A stretch of 64,000 nucleotides of DNA from Rhodospirillaceae bacterium (GTDB taxonomy: Bacteria > Pseudomonadota > Alphaproteobacteria > GCA-2731375), in assembly GCA_018660265.1 (NCBI GenBank), contig JABJKS010000073.1, positions 1-64,000 of the forward strand, written 5' to 3'. The stretch's first letter is position 1, and every line of letters starts with the position of its first letter. Made by a program: the position numbers and the translations under genes. The notes below the pieces were generated by a model. It searched no databases. It was not told the origin of the DNA and saw only the letters and a program-made list of their open reading frames with translations. Shown one piece after another: positions 3,366 to 51,861 of this stretch.

Positions 3366-3588
3366 CGGGTTAATCCTTGTATTTACCTTAACCGTATACG
3401 GTATTGCCAACGCGCAACGCACTTACGCTTGTGGCCCTCACTACGATCAACCTGGGCTTTTTCCTTAAACGCACCCAGCCTCCCTCTGATATCCAATTGG
3501 ACTATAGACCTCGATGGCCATCACCGCAAGTGTAAAGATATCATTAACAAGGAAAAAATTTCGCCTCGAACTGCCGCCAAGGTGCCTG

Positions 3589-4488
3589 CTAGGCCGCCAC
3601 GCGCTTTCGACGCCAGCCGGCGAAGCCCAATACCGCCAGACCCGTGGCAAACAGGGGCAATGCGGCTGGTACCGGCACCACAGACCCGGACCAGGCGAAA
3701 AGATATTCCGGGGTATTCGTTCCCTCAAATGTCGAAGCCGATGAAAACACCAATTTCACCCAGACTTCGTCCCCAGGGAGATTAACGACAGCACGAAGAA
3801 TTTGCATGTTGTCATCTGTGTTGGGAATATCCATCAACATGATATCGGCGTCGTTCAAATCATCGACTTCCAATGTATCATTTCCGTCGCCATTCGCGTC
3901 ACCCTGAATAGGCAGCTTGTCGCCTGGGGTCGCGGCCGATGCGTGAAAGCTAATCTTGACGGATTCCTTGAAACCATTGGGATCATTTGTTTGGCCCGCG
4001 CCGAACAGATTATCGGCGTTCGTGAGGTCAAGATCTTCAAATTCAAATGTGAACCCGGTTAATCCGGGCGAAAGTGGCTCAACACCGCCATCGTCGGCCA
4101 AATTCTTATAGTGCAGGAACATCGTAAGTGTATCCGTTGCACCATATCCACTGTCATAATATGTTCCGGCTTTTCCCGAACTACCGTCGGGCGGGTCGGT
4201 CACGCCGAAAGTTCCTGTCGCGCTGGAGCTGAGGGGTATATAATATTCAATGTTATAAGGACTGCCGGTTGGATTGCGGCCCTGCCCAAGCTGGACGCCG
4301 GGATTGCCGGGATCCGGCTGACCCGCCGAAACAATATTTGTACCCGCAGCATCAGCCAACGGCGTAACGCCCCCAATGCTATCGACGACAACACCGACAA
4401 CAATGGCATTGGCTATAGAACCGATTGTCAGGCCGCCAAGCGCCAAGGCACTACCGAGTACGAAATTGTGAATTTTACGCATTTTCAT
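3589..4488 (-). CDS. Secreted protein with VPxPA-type exosortase sorting tail (2)
   Basis: 299 residues. Signal peptide MKMRKIHNFVLGSALALGGL... with likely cleavage after ANA near residue 28. The mature region is Gly/Asp/Asn-rich (GDANGDGNDTLEVDDLND resembles a Ca-binding dockerin-like or EF-hand-like loop by eye) and otherwise unrecognised. The C-terminus VPVPAALPLFATG, hydrophobic helix and WRRKRVAA is the sorting tail and is nearly identical to those of the genes on both sides. Known family behaviour: export by Sec, then exosortase processing at the outer surface. Inference: an extracellular matrix or surface protein. The ribosome-binding site is weak. An alternative start two codons downstream (4482) would make no functional difference. 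Confidence 0.82.
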   Translation of the reverse strand: MKMRKIHNFVLGSALALGGLTIGSIANAIVVGVVVDSIGGVTPLADAAGTNIVSAGQPDPGNPGVQLGQGRNPTGSPYNIEYYIPLSSSATGTFGVTDPPDGSSGKAGTYYDSGYGATDTLTMFLHYKNLADDGGVEPLSPGLTGFTFEFEDLDLTNADNLFGAGQTNDPNGFKESVKISFHASAATPGDKLPIQGDANGDGNDTLEVDDLNDADIMLMDIPNTDDNMQILRAVVNLPGDEVWVKLVFSSASTFEGTNTPEYLFAWSGSVVPVPAALPLFATGLAVLGFAGWRRKRVAA

Positions 4489-4680
4489 TACTACACCACA
4501 GAATATGCCGCAGGTACCGCTGTAAACTGCGAAGAAAAGCCAATGCCCTCGACCGCGCCCTAAACGACGGATTGTCGGCTAAGATTCTGTTATCCATATG
4601 TATTTTAACGAAACCGGCTATTGCGCCAACCCAATTGTCTTGCAAAAATACCATTTTGTATTTTTAGCGACAATATATGG

Positions 4681-4714
4681 CTAAAACAAAAACAACGGTC
4701 GTTAGGGCCGCTGT
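4681..4714 (-). terminator. Rho-independent terminator of the third sorting-tail gene
   Basis: On the minus strand ACAGCGG pairs with CCGTTGT (one G-U pair) around a 9-base loop, followed by TTTTTGTTTT. It lies 27 bases past the stop of the gene at 4741-5589. Confidence 0.7.
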
Positions 4715-4740
4715 ATTCGATATTGGAGTAACTTGGCCGT

Positions 4741-5589
4741 TCAGGCAGCAGCTTTTTTTCTGCGCCACCCGGCAAATCCCAACACTGCCAAGCCAGATGC
4801 GAACAAGGGCAGCGCGGCTGGAATCGGCACCGGCGGAAGCCCTACCGCCTCATCCGAAAGATGCAGTTGCATGTTTACGACACTGTCCACGACGGCTTTC
4901 GCCTCATCAGACGACGCCAGCCCTAAAAACATCAGTTCAACGGACGCCGTCCTGTTAAATTCGAGACATTTATCCACAGTACAGATGCCTTGGTCGATAA
5001 GGTACTCCCGAGATGTCGCCCAGGTAAGGCCGTCGGCAGTGCCGTCGCTGTCCTCGTACTGCCATTTCTTATCGAAAACGGGGCTATTTGGTCCGGTTAC
5101 GTTCAACATGAAGTATTCGCTTCCCGTCTGCGTACCATAGTCCATTTTGACGGATTTCACGGTCTTTTCCTTATCATCAAAATGATGCGATCCTGCTAAA
5201 TACGCATCAAGATATTCGATTGGGATGTCGCTACAAGCGCTATCGGGGGTGCCGCCGCTGTACGTGCAGCCATCCGCCCAGATCATGCGTCTGGCATAGT
5301 CCGGGACCTCAAAAAATAGGTTTAGGGAAAAATCAGCGCCGCTTCCGTTAATCTCCCAGGAAAGGGGATTCATGTGTCCGGCAGCTAACGTGTAGATCGA
5401 ATTATGGTCGTTATACCAAACGATCTCTCTCGAGCCGGAATTGGCACCGGTGTATTCGCCAGCCGTCATGATACCATCAACGGTGATCGCCGTAGCAAAC
5501 GCAGGCCCCATGGTGGCAAAGGCCGCACACAGTCCGGCGAGAAGCGGTATAGCGTAGCGCACGCGCATCATCGTTTTTATGGTTTTCAT
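4741..5589 (-). CDS. Secreted protein with VPxPA-type exosortase sorting tail (3)
   Basis: 282 residues from the ATG at 5589, which has GGAG eight bases upstream; the in-frame GTG at 5607 overlaps that site and is unlikely. Signal peptide (MKTIKTMMRVRYAIPLLAGL...) with cleavage near residues 33-35. The mature protein starts ITVDGIMTAGEYTG, which resembles the start of DOMON/CBM9-like sugar-binding folds (weak, by eye). It holds several cysteines (WADGC...SACSD; QGICTVDKCLEF) that could form disulfides. The C-terminal tail VPIPAALPLFASG, hydrophobic helix and WRRKKAAA is shared with the two genes downstream. Probable substrate of an exosortase encoded elsewhere. Confidence 0.82.
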   Translation of the reverse strand: MKTIKTMMRVRYAIPLLAGLCAAFATMGPAFATAITVDGIMTAGEYTGANSGSREIVWYNDHNSIYTLAAGHMNPLSWEINGSGADFSLNLFFEVPDYARRMIWADGCTYSGGTPDSACSDIPIEYLDAYLAGSHHFDDKEKTVKSVKMDYGTQTGSEYFMLNVTGPNSPVFDKKWQYEDSDGTADGLTWATSREYLIDQGICTVDKCLEFNRTASVELMFLGLASSDEAKAVVDSVVNMQLHLSDEAVGLPPVPIPAALPLFASGLAVLGFAGWRRKKAAA

Positions 5590-39417: not shown

Positions 39418-40812
39418 CTATTCGTTTTCGGCCAGGAAGTTCCGGATTTCGTCTACGAATTCCGGCCAAGCGGGTTCGTCTTCCAATATTAAGTGGTTAT
39501 CGCCTTCCAGGGCGACAAACCGGGCACCGGGGATCATGGCGGCCATACGACGGCCCTCCGAGAAGGGCACGATCCCATCATTTTTACAATGTAATACCAG
39601 AGTCGGAATATCGACCTTAGCCAAAAGATCCGTCACATCTACATTGTCGTTGGCCAGACGAAGGCGCACCGCGTTTTCCGGCGATACGGAAACTCGTTGC
39701 AACTCGTTGAACCAATCCCATTGTTCGGCTGATCCGCCAGGCAGAAAACTGGAGGTAAACATTTGCCGAAATGCTGGGTTTTCCTGCCCCCAACCAGTTT
39801 GTATCAAGGTGCGCATGGCAATGGCTTGATCTTTCGATGCGGCGGAGCCCCGCTTCTCGCTGCCACGGGCGAAACCGCCGTATAGGATAAGGTGGCTGAC
39901 GCGGCCGGGATTCCGTACGGCATAGGCAATGGAGATGGCGCAGCCTTGGGAGATGCCCAGTAATGGAAAGCGGTCCAACTTCGCCGCATCAATAACCGTG
40001 GACAGGTCAGCGACGAAAGCTTCGAAAGAGACATCCTCTACATCCCAATCCGAGAGACCATTAGCTCTTTGATCAAACCGGATTAGCGTGTGCTCACGGC
40101 TCAACTCTTCCAGCGTATGACGCCAAATTGGGCTTTTCCAATCATACTCCAGATGGCTCATCCAATGCGGCGCCCTGACCAACGGTGGGCCCGAACCCGC
40201 GGTCGCATAGGCGATGCCGGCACCATCAGGGGCGGTACAAAAATGAATAATCTGATCCAGGGGTACCGTCGCCGTATTGGCGTTTTCTGCCCTGCCATCC
40301 CATTTCCAACAGCTTACCGGGCGCTCTATATTTTTCAGCTGCTGTTCGCCGATACTAATAATATCGACGTCCACCCGGCCAACGACCTGACTGTGCACGC
40401 TATCGGACAGTAACAGCCCACCTGCCGGTGCCAGACTTTCCAGACGGGCTGCAATATTGACGCCATCGCCGAATATGTCGTCGCCTTCAATGACAATGTC
40501 GCCCAAATTGACGCCGATGCGGAATTCAATTTCATTGTCGGCGCTATGGTTGCGTACCGCCATGGCTTTTTGAAAGGCGACAGCGCAGGATACCGCATCA
40601 ACTACGGAACTAAACTCAGCCAAGGCACCATCCCCCATCATCTTGGCAATGCGGCCATTGTGTTCCGCGATGGCGGGATTGAAATGCTCGCCTCAAATGT
40701 CACGCAGGGTGGCCAGGGTACCCGCTTCATCGATACCCACCATCTTGCTATAGCCCACGACATCAGCCGCCAGAATTGCCGCCAGTCGCCGCGTAACATC
40801 CCCGCCTGACAT
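39418..40812 (-). pseudogene. Adenylate cyclase-alpha/beta hydrolase fusion interrupted by in-frame TGA
   Basis: The full frame runs from an ATG at 40812 (GGGAGA seven bases upstream) and reads MSGGDVTRRLAAILAADVVG... to a TGA at 40695-40693 (codon 40), in a place where relatives read LRDI-Arg-xEHFNPAIAEHNG; CGA to TGA is the simplest change. Reading then resumes in the same frame to 39418. The cyclase domain (KMMGDGALAEF, DGVNIAARLES) is followed by an alpha/beta hydrolase with nucleophile elbow GISQG, acid in HCKNDG and GDNH. Translation from the internal ATG at 40641 would give 407 residues lacking the first metal Asp (residue 17), so cyclase activity should be lost while the hydrolase remains whole. 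Confidence 0.82.
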
Positions 40813-46037: not shown

Positions 46038-47150
46038 TTACATACGGTTTTCCCGACGGATCGTGGTGCGTTCCTTCTCACCTTCGAGATAGTACAGTTC
46101 TTTCTCACCAAACCCTTTGACCGTATGTGTGCCGCGCTCTTCCATAATAAAATCATCCCGGAGCAGGTCATAGGTCTCTGTCGATACGGTAATCTGCATG
46201 GATTCCGACATGCTTTCCATGCGCGCGGCCAGGTTCACGCCGGGGCCAAAGATATCGTAGACGTATTTTTGAATGCCGACGATGGATCCGATGACAGAAC
46301 CTGTGGCAATGCCGATACGGCAATTCCAGGTCCGGGTATGGGCTGCATTGCGCCGATCCAGATATCGCCGCAATCGTAGGGCGACACGGGCCATATCAGC
46401 GGCATGGTCGGGAGAGGTTTCAGGCAGACCCGAGACGCACATATAGCCATCGCCCATGGTCTTGATCCGCTCACAGCCAAACATTTCCACGATCCGGTCA
46501 AAGGCCGAAAAGATATCGTTCAATTCGGCCACCAACTCGCCGGGTTCCCGGCTGACGGCCATTTCCGTGAAGTCGACAAAATCCAATAACAGGATCGTCG
46601 CGTTGTCATAACGTTGCGGCGTCACGGTGCCGTAGTCCTTCATCTCCTCGTAGACGGAACGGGGCATAATGTTCAGCAACAGACGCTCCACCCGATCCTT
46701 TTCCTTTTGCAATTCCCGGGTATTGCGTTCGGCAACCTCGGAATAGGATTCCAGCATGAACTCGGCTCGTTTTTGCGCCGTCATGTCCCGACATTCGACT
46801 ACAGCAAATTCATCGCCACCATCAAAGCCGCGCATGGTGATCTCCAAAAAGGTCGAGCGGGCACCATCCCGCAGTTCGAAATCCTGACGATACGAACGGT
46901 TACCTTTGATGCGGTCCCGCGCCCGATCCGCGCGGAATTCGTTCAAACGGCTGTCGAGGGGAGCATCAGTGTCACCGTTCGGCGGGCACCACTTGAAGAA
47001 GCGGCCGTTCTCGAAAACAATGCGCCAATCAGCCACGGTCACAACGGCTACGCCTGTTTCCAGGTCACGCAGTAAATCGCCCAGGCTTTCTTCCGGAAAG
47101 GCGACGGGCACGGCGGGGGTATCTAATTCAGTGGCGGCAGCTTCTGACAT
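46038..47150 (-). CDS. PAS domain-containing class III adenylate cyclase
   Basis: 370 residues, no membrane segments. PAS-like domain about 25-125, signalling coiled coil about 130-172 (NTRELQKEKDRVERLLLNIM), cyclase domain about 180-365. Metal aspartates are Asp190 (LLLDFVDFT) and Asp234 (KTMGDGY). Lys230 and Asp299 (YVYDIFG) are the ATP-selecting pair, and Asn306/Arg310 (VNLAARMES) the transition-state residues. So I predict cAMP, not cGMP. The ATG at 47150 has GGAG eight bases before it; a GTG at 47177 overlaps the upstream globin stop. It directly follows the truncated haemoglobin gene, with which it is probably co-translated. Confidence 0.9.
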   Translation of the reverse strand: MSEAAATELDTPAVPVAFPEESLGDLLRDLETGVAVVTVADWRIVFENGRFFKWCPPNGDTDAPLDSRLNEFRADRARDRIKGNRSYRQDFELRDGARSTFLEITMRGFDGGDEFAVVECRDMTAQKRAEFMLESYSEVAERNTRELQKEKDRVERLLLNIMPRSVYEEMKDYGTVTPQRYDNATILLLDFVDFTEMAVSREPGELVAELNDIFSAFDRIVEMFGCERIKTMGDGYMCVSGLPETSPDHAADMARVALRLRRYLDRRNAAHTRTWNCRIGIATGSVIGSIVGIQKYVYDIFGPGVNLAARMESMSESMQITVSTETYDLLRDDFIMEERGTHTVKGFGEKELYYLEGEKERTTIRRENRM

Positions 47151-47176
47151 AATGACAGCTCCTATTGCGGCATTCA

Positions 47177-47536
47177 CTAGTGGCGAACGACAAAATTGAC
47201 CCGATTGTTGAAGTTCTGCACCACCTCGTTGACATCTTCATCATTGAGGTCGAAATCCTCGAGTGTTTCCTGCAAAAGCTCCATCATCTCGTCGAATTCC
47301 GCCCGCGTTATGGTAAAACGGGCATGGGCGCGTTCCAGTTCCTGGTTGGAATAGCTGGCGGGCCCACCCATCAGCGATGCGATGAATTTTGTTTGGTGAT
47401 CAATCTGGCGGCGCATATCGATATTTTCGAAATATTTGCTCAACTCCGGTGAATCGAGAACCTTATCGTAAAAAGACGAAACAACCTTGCTGATGCTTCC
47501 AAAGCCGCCATAACGTTCAAAGGTGGATTTTGTCAT
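47177..47536 (-). CDS. Truncated haemoglobin, group I-like
   Basis: 119 residues from the ATG at 47536 (ATG at 47551 adds MKDRI; neither has a strong ribosome-binding site). Two-over-two globin marks: STFERYGGFGSISKVVSSFYDKVL with Tyr23 at B10, HQTKFIASLMGGPASYS over the haem, and AHARFTITRAEFD with proximal His71 (F8). Known members bind O2, NO or CO. Position 26 bases before the PAS-adenylate cyclase and downstream of a two-component regulator suggests a haem-based sensor or NO/O2 scavenger that feeds cAMP signalling. That link is inferred. Confidence 0.9.
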   Translation of the reverse strand: MTKSTFERYGGFGSISKVVSSFYDKVLDSPELSKYFENIDMRRQIDHQTKFIASLMGGPASYSNQELERAHARFTITRAEFDEMMELLQETLEDFDLNDEDVNEVVQNFNNRVNFVVRH

Positions 47537-47683
47537 TATTCTATCTTTCATTTCTTGGTGCCCAGATTTTCAAAAAATGCCGGCCATCTCTGCAACTTGC
47601 CGTCCAAAATGGCTGGTGCGGCTGTTGACGGTTATGAATTTAGGTGTGGCGGGTATCTGTTTGATGTCTGCCAACGCGGCGAA

Positions 47684-47704
47684 TTGTTTCAATTGTTTCA
47701 GTCG
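47684..47704. repeat. 21-bp direct repeat, copy 1
   Basis: TTGTTTCAATTGTTTCAGTCG, identical to 48770-48790. Contains two GTTTCA units and the CAATTG palindrome. The two copies lie on either side of the OmpR-type regulator gene. Confidence 0.6.
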
Positions 47705-47724
47705 CGAAGGTTTGGATAGGACAT

Positions 47725-47753
47725 AAAAAAAGACGCCGGAAACAGGCGCCTTT
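47725..47753 (-). terminator. Rho-independent terminator of the response regulator
   Basis: On the minus strand AAAGGCGCC pairs with GGCGTCTTT-type sequence (one mismatch) around TGTTTCC and is followed by a run of seven T. It lies 20 bases past the regulator stop at 47774, so the globin-cyclase pair needs its own promoter. Confidence 0.75.
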
Positions 47754-47773
47754 GAAATCCGAGTGGTCTGAAA

Positions 47774-48490
47774 TCAAGTCGGGGCGTAAGTATAACCCAT
47801 GCCGCGTACGGTCTTGATGACCTGGGGTTTGGCCGGGTCCATTTCGATCTTGCGCCGCAGGCGGGCAATACGAATATCGATGGACCGATCATAGGGTTCC
47901 CAATTTTTGTGGTGCGCAAATTCCAGCAACTGATCCCGGGTTAAGACCCTGTTCGGACGTTCGACAAAAGCACACAGCAAGTCATACTCCATTGCTGTAA
48001 TTGAAATCTCGCCACCGGCCTGATCGAACAGACGATGGGTATCCAAATCCAGATGGCAACTGCCGAAACGTACGCGCTGTTTTTCTGTAGCCGCCTGATC
48101 TGGAGTGCCGGAGTTCAGGCGGGTACGGCGCAGAACGGTTTTGATCCGCGCAAACAACTCCCGCAGATCAACAGGCTTCGCCAGATAGTCATCCGCACCC
48201 ATTTCCAGGCCGACAATTCTATCCATCACTTCATTGGCTGCGGTCAGCATAATAATTGGTACGTCGGAGCTTTCCCGTAGAAAGCGCGCCAAGGTCAGGC
48301 CGTCTTCTCCGGGCATGTTTATGTCCAAAATGACCAAATCGATCGCTTCACCTGAAGCGATAACCTCGCGCAAAGTGGCCCCGCCCATGGCAGGGGTGAC
48401 GCGGAAATTCTTGAGTTCAAGATATTCCTGCAAAGTATCACGGATACCCTGCTCGTCATCCACGACAACAATATGATCCATTTCAACCAT
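47774..48490 (-). CDS. OmpR-family DNA-binding response regulator
   Basis: 238 residues. Receiver domain with acidic pair (VVVDDEQ), phospho-Asp in LVILDINMPGEDG, Thr in MLTAAN and Lys in LAKPVDL. The C-terminal winged helix has LDTHRLFDQAGGEISITAMEYDLLCAFVERP and RSIDIRIARLRRKIE, ending VRGMGYTYAPT. ATG at 48490 has AAGGA eight bases upstream. The hybrid kinase gene lies 314 bases upstream in the same direction and is the likely partner. Confidence 0.94.
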   Translation of the reverse strand: MVEMDHIVVVDDEQGIRDTLQEYLELKNFRVTPAMGGATLREVIASGEAIDLVILDINMPGEDGLTLARFLRESSDVPIIMLTAANEVMDRIVGLEMGADDYLAKPVDLRELFARIKTVLRRTRLNSGTPDQAATEKQRVRFGSCHLDLDTHRLFDQAGGEISITAMEYDLLCAFVERPNRVLTRDQLLEFAHHKNWEPYDRSIDIRIARLRRKIEMDPAKPQVIKTVRGMGYTYAPT

Positions 48491-48804
48491 GACCAATGTC
48501 CTTCAACCTGGTGCCATCAAGACCGAAGCAGGAAAAGCTGCGTGATCTTACGGGCCATAGCTTGGGTATAAGCCGCGAACGCACAAAGCACCGTCATATA
48601 GGGGTCAATATTTTTTAATTCATAACCAGCCGTGCCATGCGTGTGCATGCCGCTGCTAAATGTCGAGGTATACATTGTTCTTGCTCCGGCCTTAACCGTT
48701 CAATCCTACGTTCGATGGTCTTAATGTGCCTCGGCTCAATGTCAGCCCTATGTCCATATTGCCGGGGTTTTGTTTCAATTGTTTCAGTCGGCCAATTGAA
48801 CCAA
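48491..48804 (-). other. Intergenic region between kinase and response regulator
   Basis: About 310 bases. The only clear structure is the second copy of the 21-bp repeat (48770-48790). Short frames here are antisense shadows. The spacing suggests that the regulator has its own promoter. Confidence 0.45.
48770..48790. repeat. 21-bp direct repeat, copy 2
   Basis: Same sequence as 47684-47704, 15 bases beyond the hybrid kinase stop. Followed by GCCAATTGAACCAATTATG, another CAATTG-type context. Confidence 0.6.
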
Positions 48805-51800
48805 TTATGTCGTCGCCAAAATTTGCAGAATGAGGGTACGCACATCGCCCGGCGTAATGGGTTTTTCAATATAGGGGCGACCGCTGCCGCGTAGAAAAGA
48901 TGCCATGTGCTCACTTAAGGTATCGCCGGTCAAAAAGCCTATGCGGTTGAGCAGGTGCGGATGATCCCGGCGCAGGTTTTCAAAAAATGCCGGGCCATCC
49001 ATTTCCGGCATTCGAAGGTCGCTGAGGATAACGTCAAACTGTTGTCCCCACAGCAGGGCCAGGCCTTCCCGTCCATTGCCGGCGATGGTCGTCTGATGGC
49101 CGTCCAATTCCAGAATATCAGAAAGCAAATTGGCGACGCTGGCCTCATCGTCGACGATCAATACCGATAGCTTCGATGTCGAGGGCGCAGAGCTTCCCGA
49201 GGCTTCCGCTCTGGGCTGATCCTCGGATACTGCCGGCAGACGCATAACAAAAGTGGTCCCTGATGCCGGGCCGCTTTGTAGTTTTATACGGCCCCCATGA
49301 GAGCGCAAGATACGATGACAGAGGGCCAGGCCGATGCCGGTGCCATCGCCGACTTCTTTGGTGGTAAAGAACGGTTCGAATATACGCCGGCGGATATCGT
49401 CAGGGATGCCTGGTCCATTGTCCCGGATTTTCACCACCACCATTTTTGCTTCCGGTCGATATAGCGTGACGATGCCCAGTTCTCTTGCACCCGTGGTCTC
49501 GCGTAGGGCATGCTCGGCATTCACCATGAGATTGATGAAAACCTGAATAATCTGATCCCCGTCCACCAAAACATTCGGCAATTCCGGGGCGAGTTTCTGG
49601 ACCACCGTAATGTTGGAGGCGCGCAGGGAATAGCCGGCGACTTCCAGGGCCAGATCAATCAACTCGTTGACACTGGTCGGTGCGCTTTCACCGGGTTGCT
49701 GGCGGGCCATGGACAGAAATGTTTTTACAATGCGGGCGCAGCGATCGGCTGAATTGACGATCCGTTCCGCCCGTGCGGCGACGGCTTCATCGTTGGTGGT
49801 TTCCTGCAATAACAGGGCCTGCCCGACCACAACAGAGAGCGGATTGTTCAGTTCATGGGAGACGCTGGCCAGCAATTCACCCATGGCAATCATCTTCTCG
49901 CTGACATGCAGGACTTCCCGCTGACGGGTCATCTCTTCTTCCAAGGCGCGGTATTCGGTAAGGTCCAGAATGGCCGAGACGATCATCTGTTCGCCCCGGT
50001 TTTCCACCAGCCGGGCTGAGTAAGAGGCCCAAAAATTCCTGCCGTCCCCGTCACAAAATTGGATAGCGCGATCTTGCACCAACCCGGTGTCTTGCAGTTC
50101 CAGCCAAATTCGGTCCCGGTCTGATTTGTCGGCCCAGTAGTCGCGGGCCACTGGGTTGTCGCCTTCGCCACCACGGCGGAAAAGTTCTTTCGAGGCCGGG
50201 CTTTCATACAAAATGTGACTGTCATGGCCACGGCTGACCGTAATGGGTGCGGGGCAACCTTCCAGGATTTGCCGAACCGAGGCCTCACTTTCCCGCAAGG
50301 CCCGCTGCATTACCTTGCTTTTCGAAATGTCGGCCAGGGTGATCACCATGCCGCCCTGGCGCGTGGGTTGGGAGGAATATTGAAACCATTTATCATTCGC
50401 CAGGCGGTATTCAAAACCAAACCGGGCGTTGCCCTTGCGGCGGTCGTCGATATGGCTCTGGATAAATTTCTCAATCTCCGCATGTTCGCCATGAAATTGT
50501 CCACGCGCCATCCCGGTCCGAATAAGCGCCTCAAAGGTCTGGCCAGGTCTGATCACATCCGCGCAGGTCTTGTTGAAGTCACAGTAACGGCTGTTGAAGG
50601 TCACCAAGCGATCATCCTGGTCATAAAGGGCAAAACCTTCGGATAAAGATTCGATCGCATCCTCAAGCGTTTCATTGGCTTTGTTGAGAGCGATTTCGCG
50701 TTCCTGTTGTTCCGTGACATCAACGATGGAAGTGATGTGCACTTCCCGGCCGCCATGAACGATCAGCCTGGCCGTTATGGCGATCCAGAAAAGGACGCCG
50801 TCGGGGCGTTTGTATCTGATGCGACGGTTATGCAAGGCACCGTCACGTCGCAGTTCCGCAATGACCGCGGCCCGATCATCGGGGTCAGCGTACAAATCCT
50901 GGACACGGAAATTTTGGTCGGAACCCCAGTCCTGGCCGAATAGTTCCGAGGCTGCCGGGCTTTGATACAAAACATTTCCCGTTTCCACATCCACCAGAAT
51001 TACCGGTAGGGGATGGCTTTCCACCAGCATGCGGAAATGCTCCGCACTTTCCTGCATCTCAAGTTCCAGCTTCTTTTGGGCATGAATGTTGGTCACCAAG
51101 ATAATTTGGCCGCCCTCCATTGTCGGGGCCAGGGTGACCCGAACCCAATAGCCCGCAGACATTTTTAGCTCAATACCGGGGCCCGCGGGTTGGCTGATGC
51201 GGTGCATGATCCGCTCCACCCATTCGGTCGTTTGCTCGGTCTTTTCACCGTCAAAGGTTTCGATATTTTGCAGAATATCTTCAACCAAACGACGCCGTGG
51301 GTGACCGATAAATCGCTCCGGCCCATAGCCGGCGGAAATAGCCAGAATGGAATTGCAGGCAATGACACGGTCGTCACGGTCGGTGACACAAAAGCCGCCG
51401 TCAATATTTTCAACGGATTTCTGATAAACCTGCAGCGGGTTTCCGTCCGCCATTTCGTCGCTGATATCGATCATGCAGCCGGCCAGGCTGTTTTCGTCGC
51501 CGGCTATTAAGCGCAGGTCATCGCGGTACCAGATATACACGCCATCAGATCGCCGAAAACGATAACGGCAACTAGCCCGCCCGCTTGTTTGCAACGACTG
51601 GCAGGCCTTGCGATAGCTGGGTAAATCGTCTGCATGGATTTGGGCATCCCGATAGTCGGGGTTGGAGAGCATTTGCGCGACCGTATGGCCGGTCAGCCCC
51701 TCGATATTCTCCGAGATGTAGTGCAACGGGAAATCGCCCAATGAGCCCGTGGCAGCGGTGGCGGCGGTAGCGGTATAAAGAATTACCGGGGAATGGGCCG

Positions 51801-51861
51801 CCGCCAGGGCCAACTGGCCCGCAGTCTGTGCTTTGGTAAGCGGCCTTTGCGATGACGACAT
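48805..51861 (-). CDS. Soluble hybrid histidine kinase with about five PAS domains
   Basis: 1018 residues, no signal peptide or membrane helix, so cytoplasmic sensing. PAS-type domains at roughly 25-135, 147-260, 272-390, 395-510 and 520-635; the third carries [16 protein letters not shown] and the fifth [16 protein letters not shown], which look like duplicates. The phosphoacceptor His is in [14 protein letters not shown] near residue 665. The ATPase has [10 protein letters not shown] (N box), [14 protein letters not shown] and [10 protein letters not shown]-terminal receiver ([10 protein letters not shown]; Asp in [11 protein letters not shown]) completes a hybrid. It probably passes phosphate to the OmpR-type regulator downstream, perhaps directly or through an unseen HPt. 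Confidence 0.93.

Follow-up and report, generated by a model that had tools for sequence, protein, structure and literature searches.

A truncated haemoglobin encoded with a class III cyclase: a candidate split, haem-regulated adenylate cyclase in bacteria

Introduction

Single-domain truncated haemoglobins are found in many bacteria, often without a settled role, and a locus of a Rhodospirillaceae bacterium raises the question of what such a globin does when its gene stands directly before that of an adenylate-type cyclase. The locus lies on the minus strand of contig JABJKS010000073.1 (assembly GCA_018660265.1), of which positions 1 to 64,000, hereafter the window, were analysed, and it encodes, in order of transcription, a hybrid histidine kinase, an OmpR-type response regulator, a truncated haemoglobin (47177..47536) and a protein with PAS, signalling-helix and class III cyclase parts (46038..47150). 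Gene order and strand had been given in an earlier note made from the sequence alone, and were borne out by open reading frame (ORF) and Pfam analysis of the window.

Here we propose, with moderate confidence, that the globin and the cyclase constitute a split, non-covalent haem-regulated adenylate cyclase, in which a globin takes the place of the H-NOX domain, and that in this genus the pair is controlled by the neighbouring regulator. We favour the split-cyclase reading because of the conservation of the partner gene, the occurrence of a fusion of the two proteins, and a build that resembles soluble guanylate cyclase (sGC).

Results

The globin and the cyclase form a conserved two-gene unit

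In the window, the cyclase ATG lies 26 nt past the globin stop and is preceded by AGGAG. A scan of named genomes with an 11-globin alignment gave 209 confirmed relatives, and the best 80 of these 209 are the named loci considered here; a cyclase profile identified a cyclase relative directly downstream on the same strand at 79 of the 80, and the contig of the 80th, L101, ends just past the globin. In the reverse search, 15 of 289 genomes of the class hold a relative of the cyclase at E ≤ 1e-60, three of the 15 matches containing one or two stop codons, and all 15 adjoin a globin match. The adjacency on which the earlier note had built its proposal is conserved, therefore, in both directions of search. 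The gap between the two genes ranges from -23 to 45 nt in all 76 measured pairs, 33 of which overlap, in a count that favours tight coupling, as the start codon was chosen near the stop, and that excludes L048 (see below) as well as L044 and L058, whose cyclase frames are interrupted.

Of 387 genomes of the class, 86 match the globin profile at some level. The 20 best of these matches (E ≤ 3e-37) are followed by the cyclase in 19 cases, the exception being genome G053, to which we return; at 10 weaker loci (L140-L149), a cyclase follows only L144, a fragment of a family globin. The globin family is uncommon, since only 5 of 397 genomes drawn from the phylum hold it at E ≤ 1e-25, and neither protein of the pair reaches an NCBIfam cut-off. 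The source genome (G000) is rich in cyclic-nucleotide signalling, with 33 matches of class III cyclase type and 11 of cyclic-nucleotide-binding type, the latter including 10 above cut-off; because it has so many cyclase-family matches, one cyclase neighbour might be due to chance, but 79 hardly could. Among the other neighbouring genes, called with a simple ORF caller, none is widely shared, the largest clusters reaching 9 of 79 loci. A globin subfamily that is nearly always encoded with one cyclase thus has a concrete partner to test.

With 77 of the 79 pairs placed in trees, all 12 globin splits with support of at least 0.95 are present in the cyclase tree, and 31 of 74 splits are shared, against a mean of 0.16 and a maximum of 2 under shuffled labels. 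The pair looks to have been passed on, by inheritance or transfer, mostly as a unit of two genes. A spread beyond Proteobacteria (Chloroflexota, Nitrospinota, Gemmatimonadota, Actinomycetota, Polyangiaceae) is indicated solely by contig titles of metagenome-assembled genomes (MAGs) and is not relied on; L107 (Polyangiaceae) and L118 (Anaerolineae) nest within alphaproteobacterial clades and could be binning errors.

Globin and cyclase are separate ORFs in the window and at 78 of the 79 paired named loci. At the remaining one, L048 (6,116 bases, a contig from a MAG with a Nitrospinae title), a single ORF of 447 residues encodes both; its globin part is cut off before the final helix and runs straight into the opening helix of the cyclase.

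The paired globins share a histidine at E10

The window globin matches Pfam Bac_globin (6.5e-20), and its nearest solved structures are group 1 truncated haemoglobins, the best being 3aq5 (1.4e-15); its score for Pfam Protoglobin, 24.1 bits, is below the cut-off of 25. By alignment to 3aq5, the globin carries Tyr B10, Gln E7, His E10, Gln E11 and His F8, and two variant chains among the solved-structure matches differ at the places corresponding to E7 and E11. Tyr B10 and His F8, both previously called from the sequence, hold up in this alignment as Y28 and H76 in the numbering of the 124-residue ORF. The family match, Tyr B10, Gln E11, His F8 and paired glycines are those of a group 1 (N) truncated haemoglobin, and translation likely starts at 47536, as two relatives begin MTKSTFERYGG. 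With its ligand residues present, the protein is predicted to bind haem.

Tyr B10, His E10, Gln E11 and His F8 each occur in 79 of 79 paired globins. By comparison, of 27 other truncated haemoglobins, 6 have His and 13 have Lys at E10, and Asp at E9 is found in 78 of 79 paired globins versus none of these 27, from which L101 and L124, which belong to the family but have no cyclase in view and both carry Asp E9 and His E10, were excluded. Asp E9 and Thr E12 are the marks of the cyclase-paired family. In truncated haemoglobins, His or Lys at E10 can ligate the haem iron, and its release reshapes the protein (PMC4720485, PMC7082302, PMC11904497; excerpts). His E10 is therewith a potential sixth haem ligand and a plausible switch of the paired globins, which may be hexacoordinate at rest. 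The truncated haemoglobin of Roseobacter denitrificans, considered as a characterised member of the family, was rejected, being a group II protein with Trp G8 (PMC4319818, excerpt).

The residues also bear on the foremost alternative, which we judge unlikely though deserving of weight, namely that the globin is an enzyme removing nitric oxide (NO), as an NO dioxygenase, or peroxide, and is merely co-transcribed with the cyclase; the cyclase PAS domain would then sense something else, and the two proteins would serve one stress response without contact. The window globin carries Tyr B10, Gln E7 and Gln E11, a set found in NO dioxygenases, but E7 is Leu in 63 of the 79 paired globins and Gln in 14. 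Chlamydomonas THB1 removes NO, drawing electrons from nitrate reductase (PMC4620153, excerpt), further truncated haemoglobins act on NO (PMC3820574, excerpt), and in G053 the globin (L031:4980-5435, with Asp E9 and His E10) adjoins a Rieske dioxygenase gene (3516-4892). Against this alternative stand the near-obligate pairing in both search directions and the one-ORF fusion with the cyclase, and no widely shared third gene that could encode a reductase was found among the neighbours.

The cyclase is built like soluble guanylate cyclase, with adenylate-type residues

The split-cyclase reading also draws on the partner protein. The window cyclase matches Pfam Guanylate_cyc (8.9e-51) and has the metal-binding Asp 189 and 233, Lys229/Asp298 and Asn305/Arg309 (numbered without Met), in a catalytic domain of residues 175-358 (46074..46625). 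Counted over 72 relatives set beside the window protein, D189, D233 and D298 are each present in 72, N305 in 66 and R309 in 67, and position 229 is K in 55 and R in 17. The ATP-type Lys/Asp that the earlier note had read in the cyclase is confirmed as Lys229 and Asp298, the residue pair by which class III cyclases select ATP. Two metal Asp, an ATP-type Lys/Asp and an Asn/Arg pair are the residues of a class III adenylate cyclase, and the protein probably makes cyclic AMP (cAMP).

Pfam matched no PAS domain in the window cyclase. An AlphaFold2 (AF2) model built from 73 sequences (predicted local distance difference test, pLDDT, 84.9; predicted template modelling score, pTM, 0.56) shows a PAS-like domain at residues 32-121 (46785..47054), a long signalling (coiled-coil) helix at residues 123-160 (46668..46781) and the catalytic domain; PAS_8 is matched in 15 of 73 family members, and the PAS domain read earlier in this protein stands on these two grounds. 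Pfam HNOBA, the PAS/helix part of sGC, is found at E ≤ 0.01 in 58 of 73 members, the window protein itself falling below the Pfam cut-off with a weak HNOBA C-terminal match in the helix. In Foldseek and VIA-align, catalytic domains match first, and the near full-length match is soluble guanylate cyclase: model residues 18-357 align with 274-660 of sGC alpha-1 (8hbe_A) over 317 residues (Z 24.8, root-mean-square deviation 13.1), a Z to which the catalytic domain contributes much, and the deviation implies that the domain angles differ between the two.

A second alternative, in which the globin passes haem, electrons or ligand to the PAS domain as the true sensor, we consider very improbable. 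The model does contain a PAS-like domain, and PAS Cys119 is present in 49 of 72 relatives, but this position varies, and the domain is not an obvious haem site because His reaches at most 11 of 72 relatives in any PAS column.

Apart from the paired cyclase, the window holds a second class III cyclase domain on the minus strand (40333-40779) with an in-frame TGA, continuing into an ORF (39418-40641) that encodes the end of a cyclase domain and an alpha/beta hydrolase; this looks like a broken or misread gene.

A direct-repeat motif links the pair with the kinase-regulator genes in part of the family

For the globin-cyclase pair taken as a split cyclase, control in this genus could come from the genes preceding it. 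The hybrid kinase (48805..51861) has Pfam PAS matches at residues 48-125, 151-195, 274-384 and 403-516 and, by self-similarity, a fifth PAS at about 530-651, followed by HisKA, HATPase and a C-terminal receiver, so the five PAS domains previously assigned to it are all recovered. The regulator (47774..48490) has Response_reg and Trans_reg_C. Between the two, a 52-residue ORF (48517-48675, minus strand) is without a Pfam match; similar ORFs occupy the same place in L040 and L042 (21 and 37% identity).

The sequence TGAAACAATTGAAACA, a TGAAACA direct repeat, occurs about 150 nt before the globin (47685..47700) and again past the kinase stop, before the regulator gene (48771..48786), on the minus strand in both cases. 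Exact GAAACANNTGAAACA has three copies in the 5.5 Mb genome, two of them at this locus, and with at most one mismatch it has 13, versus 3 for the reversed pattern; the motif was spotted by eye in an alignment, and the counts are descriptive. Sites at both places are found in the window, in L040, where the pair-side copy has one mismatch, and in L042, where a 304-codon ORF (L042:7068-7982), which may belong to the operon, stands between motif and globin. In the Roseobacter-type loci L112, L113 and L116, related sites (0-2 mismatches) lie upstream of the kinase-regulator genes and of the pair, the pair-side site of L116 preceding an alpha/beta hydrolase gene that in turn precedes the globin. With at most one mismatch and within 1.2 kb upstream of the globin, the motif is present at 5 of 8 loci with the kinase-regulator genes versus 2 of 71 without them, and the reversed pattern at 0 of 79. 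Among 377 genomes of the class, exact TGAAACANTTGAAACA has 24 copies in 21 genomes; six copies (four genomes), the window's own included, adjoin a regulator relative of at least 73% identity, two more (G312, G188) lie near a kinase relative and one near a remote kinase match.

Direct repeats are common binding sites of OmpR-type regulators. The regulator probably controls both itself and the pair in this genus, the motif copies being its candidate sites, and the earlier suggestion that the pair might be a target of this regulator has gained support from the motif conserved before both. The same note had placed a terminator between the pair and the regulator: a terminator-like stem-loop is indeed present (47729..47753) and is the longest of four stems found, but with 3.0 +/- 1.8 stems in shuffled sequences the count is near expectation and the evidence by count is weak. 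Control by the kinase and regulator is not general to the globin-cyclase family, because 8 of the 80 loci were found to have these genes next to the pair, a lower bound given that 27 of the 80 have short flanks and 53 show at least 6 kb upstream and at least 5 kb downstream.

The least probable alternative is that the hybrid kinase is the target of the globin, or of its ligand state, with the cyclase merely a downstream gene, a scheme with a precedent in NosP-NahK, where a stand-alone haem protein controls a kinase (PMC8846402, excerpt), and with some footing in the eight loci where kinase and regulator relatives adjoin the pair and the promoter motif common to some of them, but 71 of the 79 paired loci are without these genes nearby, and the cyclase is kept in all 79.

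Truncated globins also occur inside other signalling proteins

Truncated haemoglobin domains were observed within four CheA-type chemotaxis kinases (L171:1360-4956, which has two such domains, L169:2213-5317, L170:393-3341 and L173:2182-5157), all of which comprise, by Pfam, Hpt, Bac_globin, H-kinase_dim, HATPase, CheW and receiver domains; the globin could be a built-in gas or redox sensor. In the CheA literature, the term 'truncated hemoglobin' was absent among the matches listed. PMC1592074 has the term in its reference list only. A further single ORF (L168:1663-3570) combines a class III cyclase, a sigma-54 AAA+ domain, a Fis-type helix-turn-helix and a C-terminal truncated globin.

Discussion

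Based on these findings, we propose that the truncated globin may serve as the sensor subunit of a split adenylate cyclase. Its haem would be held by His F8 and, at rest, probably by His E10 too; bound O2 or NO, or a change of redox state, would displace His E10 and alter the shape of the globin. Docked on the PAS / signalling-helix part of the cyclase, the globin could pass this change along the helix to the cyclase dimer and so alter the output of cAMP. In this genus, the kinase and the OmpR-type regulator would set the level of the pair via the TGAAACA direct-repeat site, which also precedes the regulator's own gene. If so, the pair would tie haem chemistry to cAMP in free-living bacteria.

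Several findings weigh against this proposal. The fusion is known from a single short contig of a MAG and could be an assembly error, and its globin is incomplete at the end; the AF2 model of the fusion has a pTM of 0.46 and, although the domains are confident, no contact between them can be read from it. That model was built from a 25-row alignment (A7), as mixed globin-cyclase alignments (A3, A5, A6) misplaced one block and only 2 of 70 random row sets aligned properly. In G053, a close globin of the family, likewise with His E10, adjoins the Rieske dioxygenase gene and no cyclase. The trees disagree in places: cyclase splits of equal support contradict 2 of 20 globin splits at support of at least 0.9 and 17 of 41 at at least 0.8. 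In partial correlations over 71 pairs, globin distances track the catalytic domain at least as well as the PAS domain; this domain-wise test gave no sign of PAS-specific co-evolution with the globin, and docking on PAS gains no support from it. As for the regulator, 71 of the 79 paired loci lack the kinase-regulator genes nearby, 15 of the 24 exact TGAAACANTTGAAACA copies are near no kinase or regulator relative, and with at most two mismatches the motif occurs three times in the window where 1.3 are expected, a number reached in 18 of 100 shuffles.

Among known proteins, the hexacoordinate group 1 haemoglobins, cyanobacterial GlbN and Chlamydomonas THB1, resemble the paired globin in having at E10 a basic residue that can ligate the haem iron, and the departure of this ligand changes the shape of the protein (PMC11904497, PMC7082302; excerpts). 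The excerpts of these papers mention no cyclase partner for GlbN or THB1, whereas the paired family is marked by Asp E9 and Thr E12. As in globin-coupled sensors, a globin is proposed here to control a signalling output. HemAC of Leishmania is reportedly a globin-coupled sensor with adenylate cyclase output. Globin-coupled sensors are fused proteins (PMC8846402, excerpt), whereas the pair's globin is a 2/2 truncated one and forms its own chain.

In arrangement, the pair resembles the stand-alone haem sensors, H-NOX with diguanylate cyclases or HnoK and NosP with NahK, in which a small haem sensor is encoded apart from its signalling enzyme (PMC8846402, excerpt), and it shares with them a conserved linkage of sensor and enzyme genes; it differs in the truncated globin fold and in a class III cyclase output, presumably cAMP. 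The earlier note had set the locus apart from the usual single-chain haem sensors; this does not hold for the separateness of the sensor, since H-NOX and NosP are known, but does for the pairing of a truncated globin with an adenylate-type class III cyclase, which appears to be new. No such pair was recognised among the full-text matches listed, a coverage outside which most subscription journals lie.

The counterpart in build is soluble guanylate cyclase. In both, a PAS domain is followed by a long helix and then by the catalytic domain, and at L048 a haem-protein domain precedes this part in one chain. Unlike sGC, the pair has no HNOB match and its cyclase begins just before PAS; the haem protein is a truncated globin, usually on its own chain; Lys229 and Asp298 stand in place of GTP-selecting residues; and the bacterial cyclase is presumed to be a homodimer. 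A bolder statement, which we regard as evenly poised, is that the animal NO receptor has here a widespread counterpart in bacteria: a hexacoordinate truncated haemoglobin, forming a separate chain, would stand in for H-NOX and gate a PAS/coiled-coil adenylate cyclase, and, together with the truncated globins of the CheA-type and cyclase-AAA proteins, such globins would make up a broad and overlooked class of signalling modules. If this is true, the layout of that receptor, with haem protein, PAS, coiled coil and cyclase in this order, would have been built a second time, independently.

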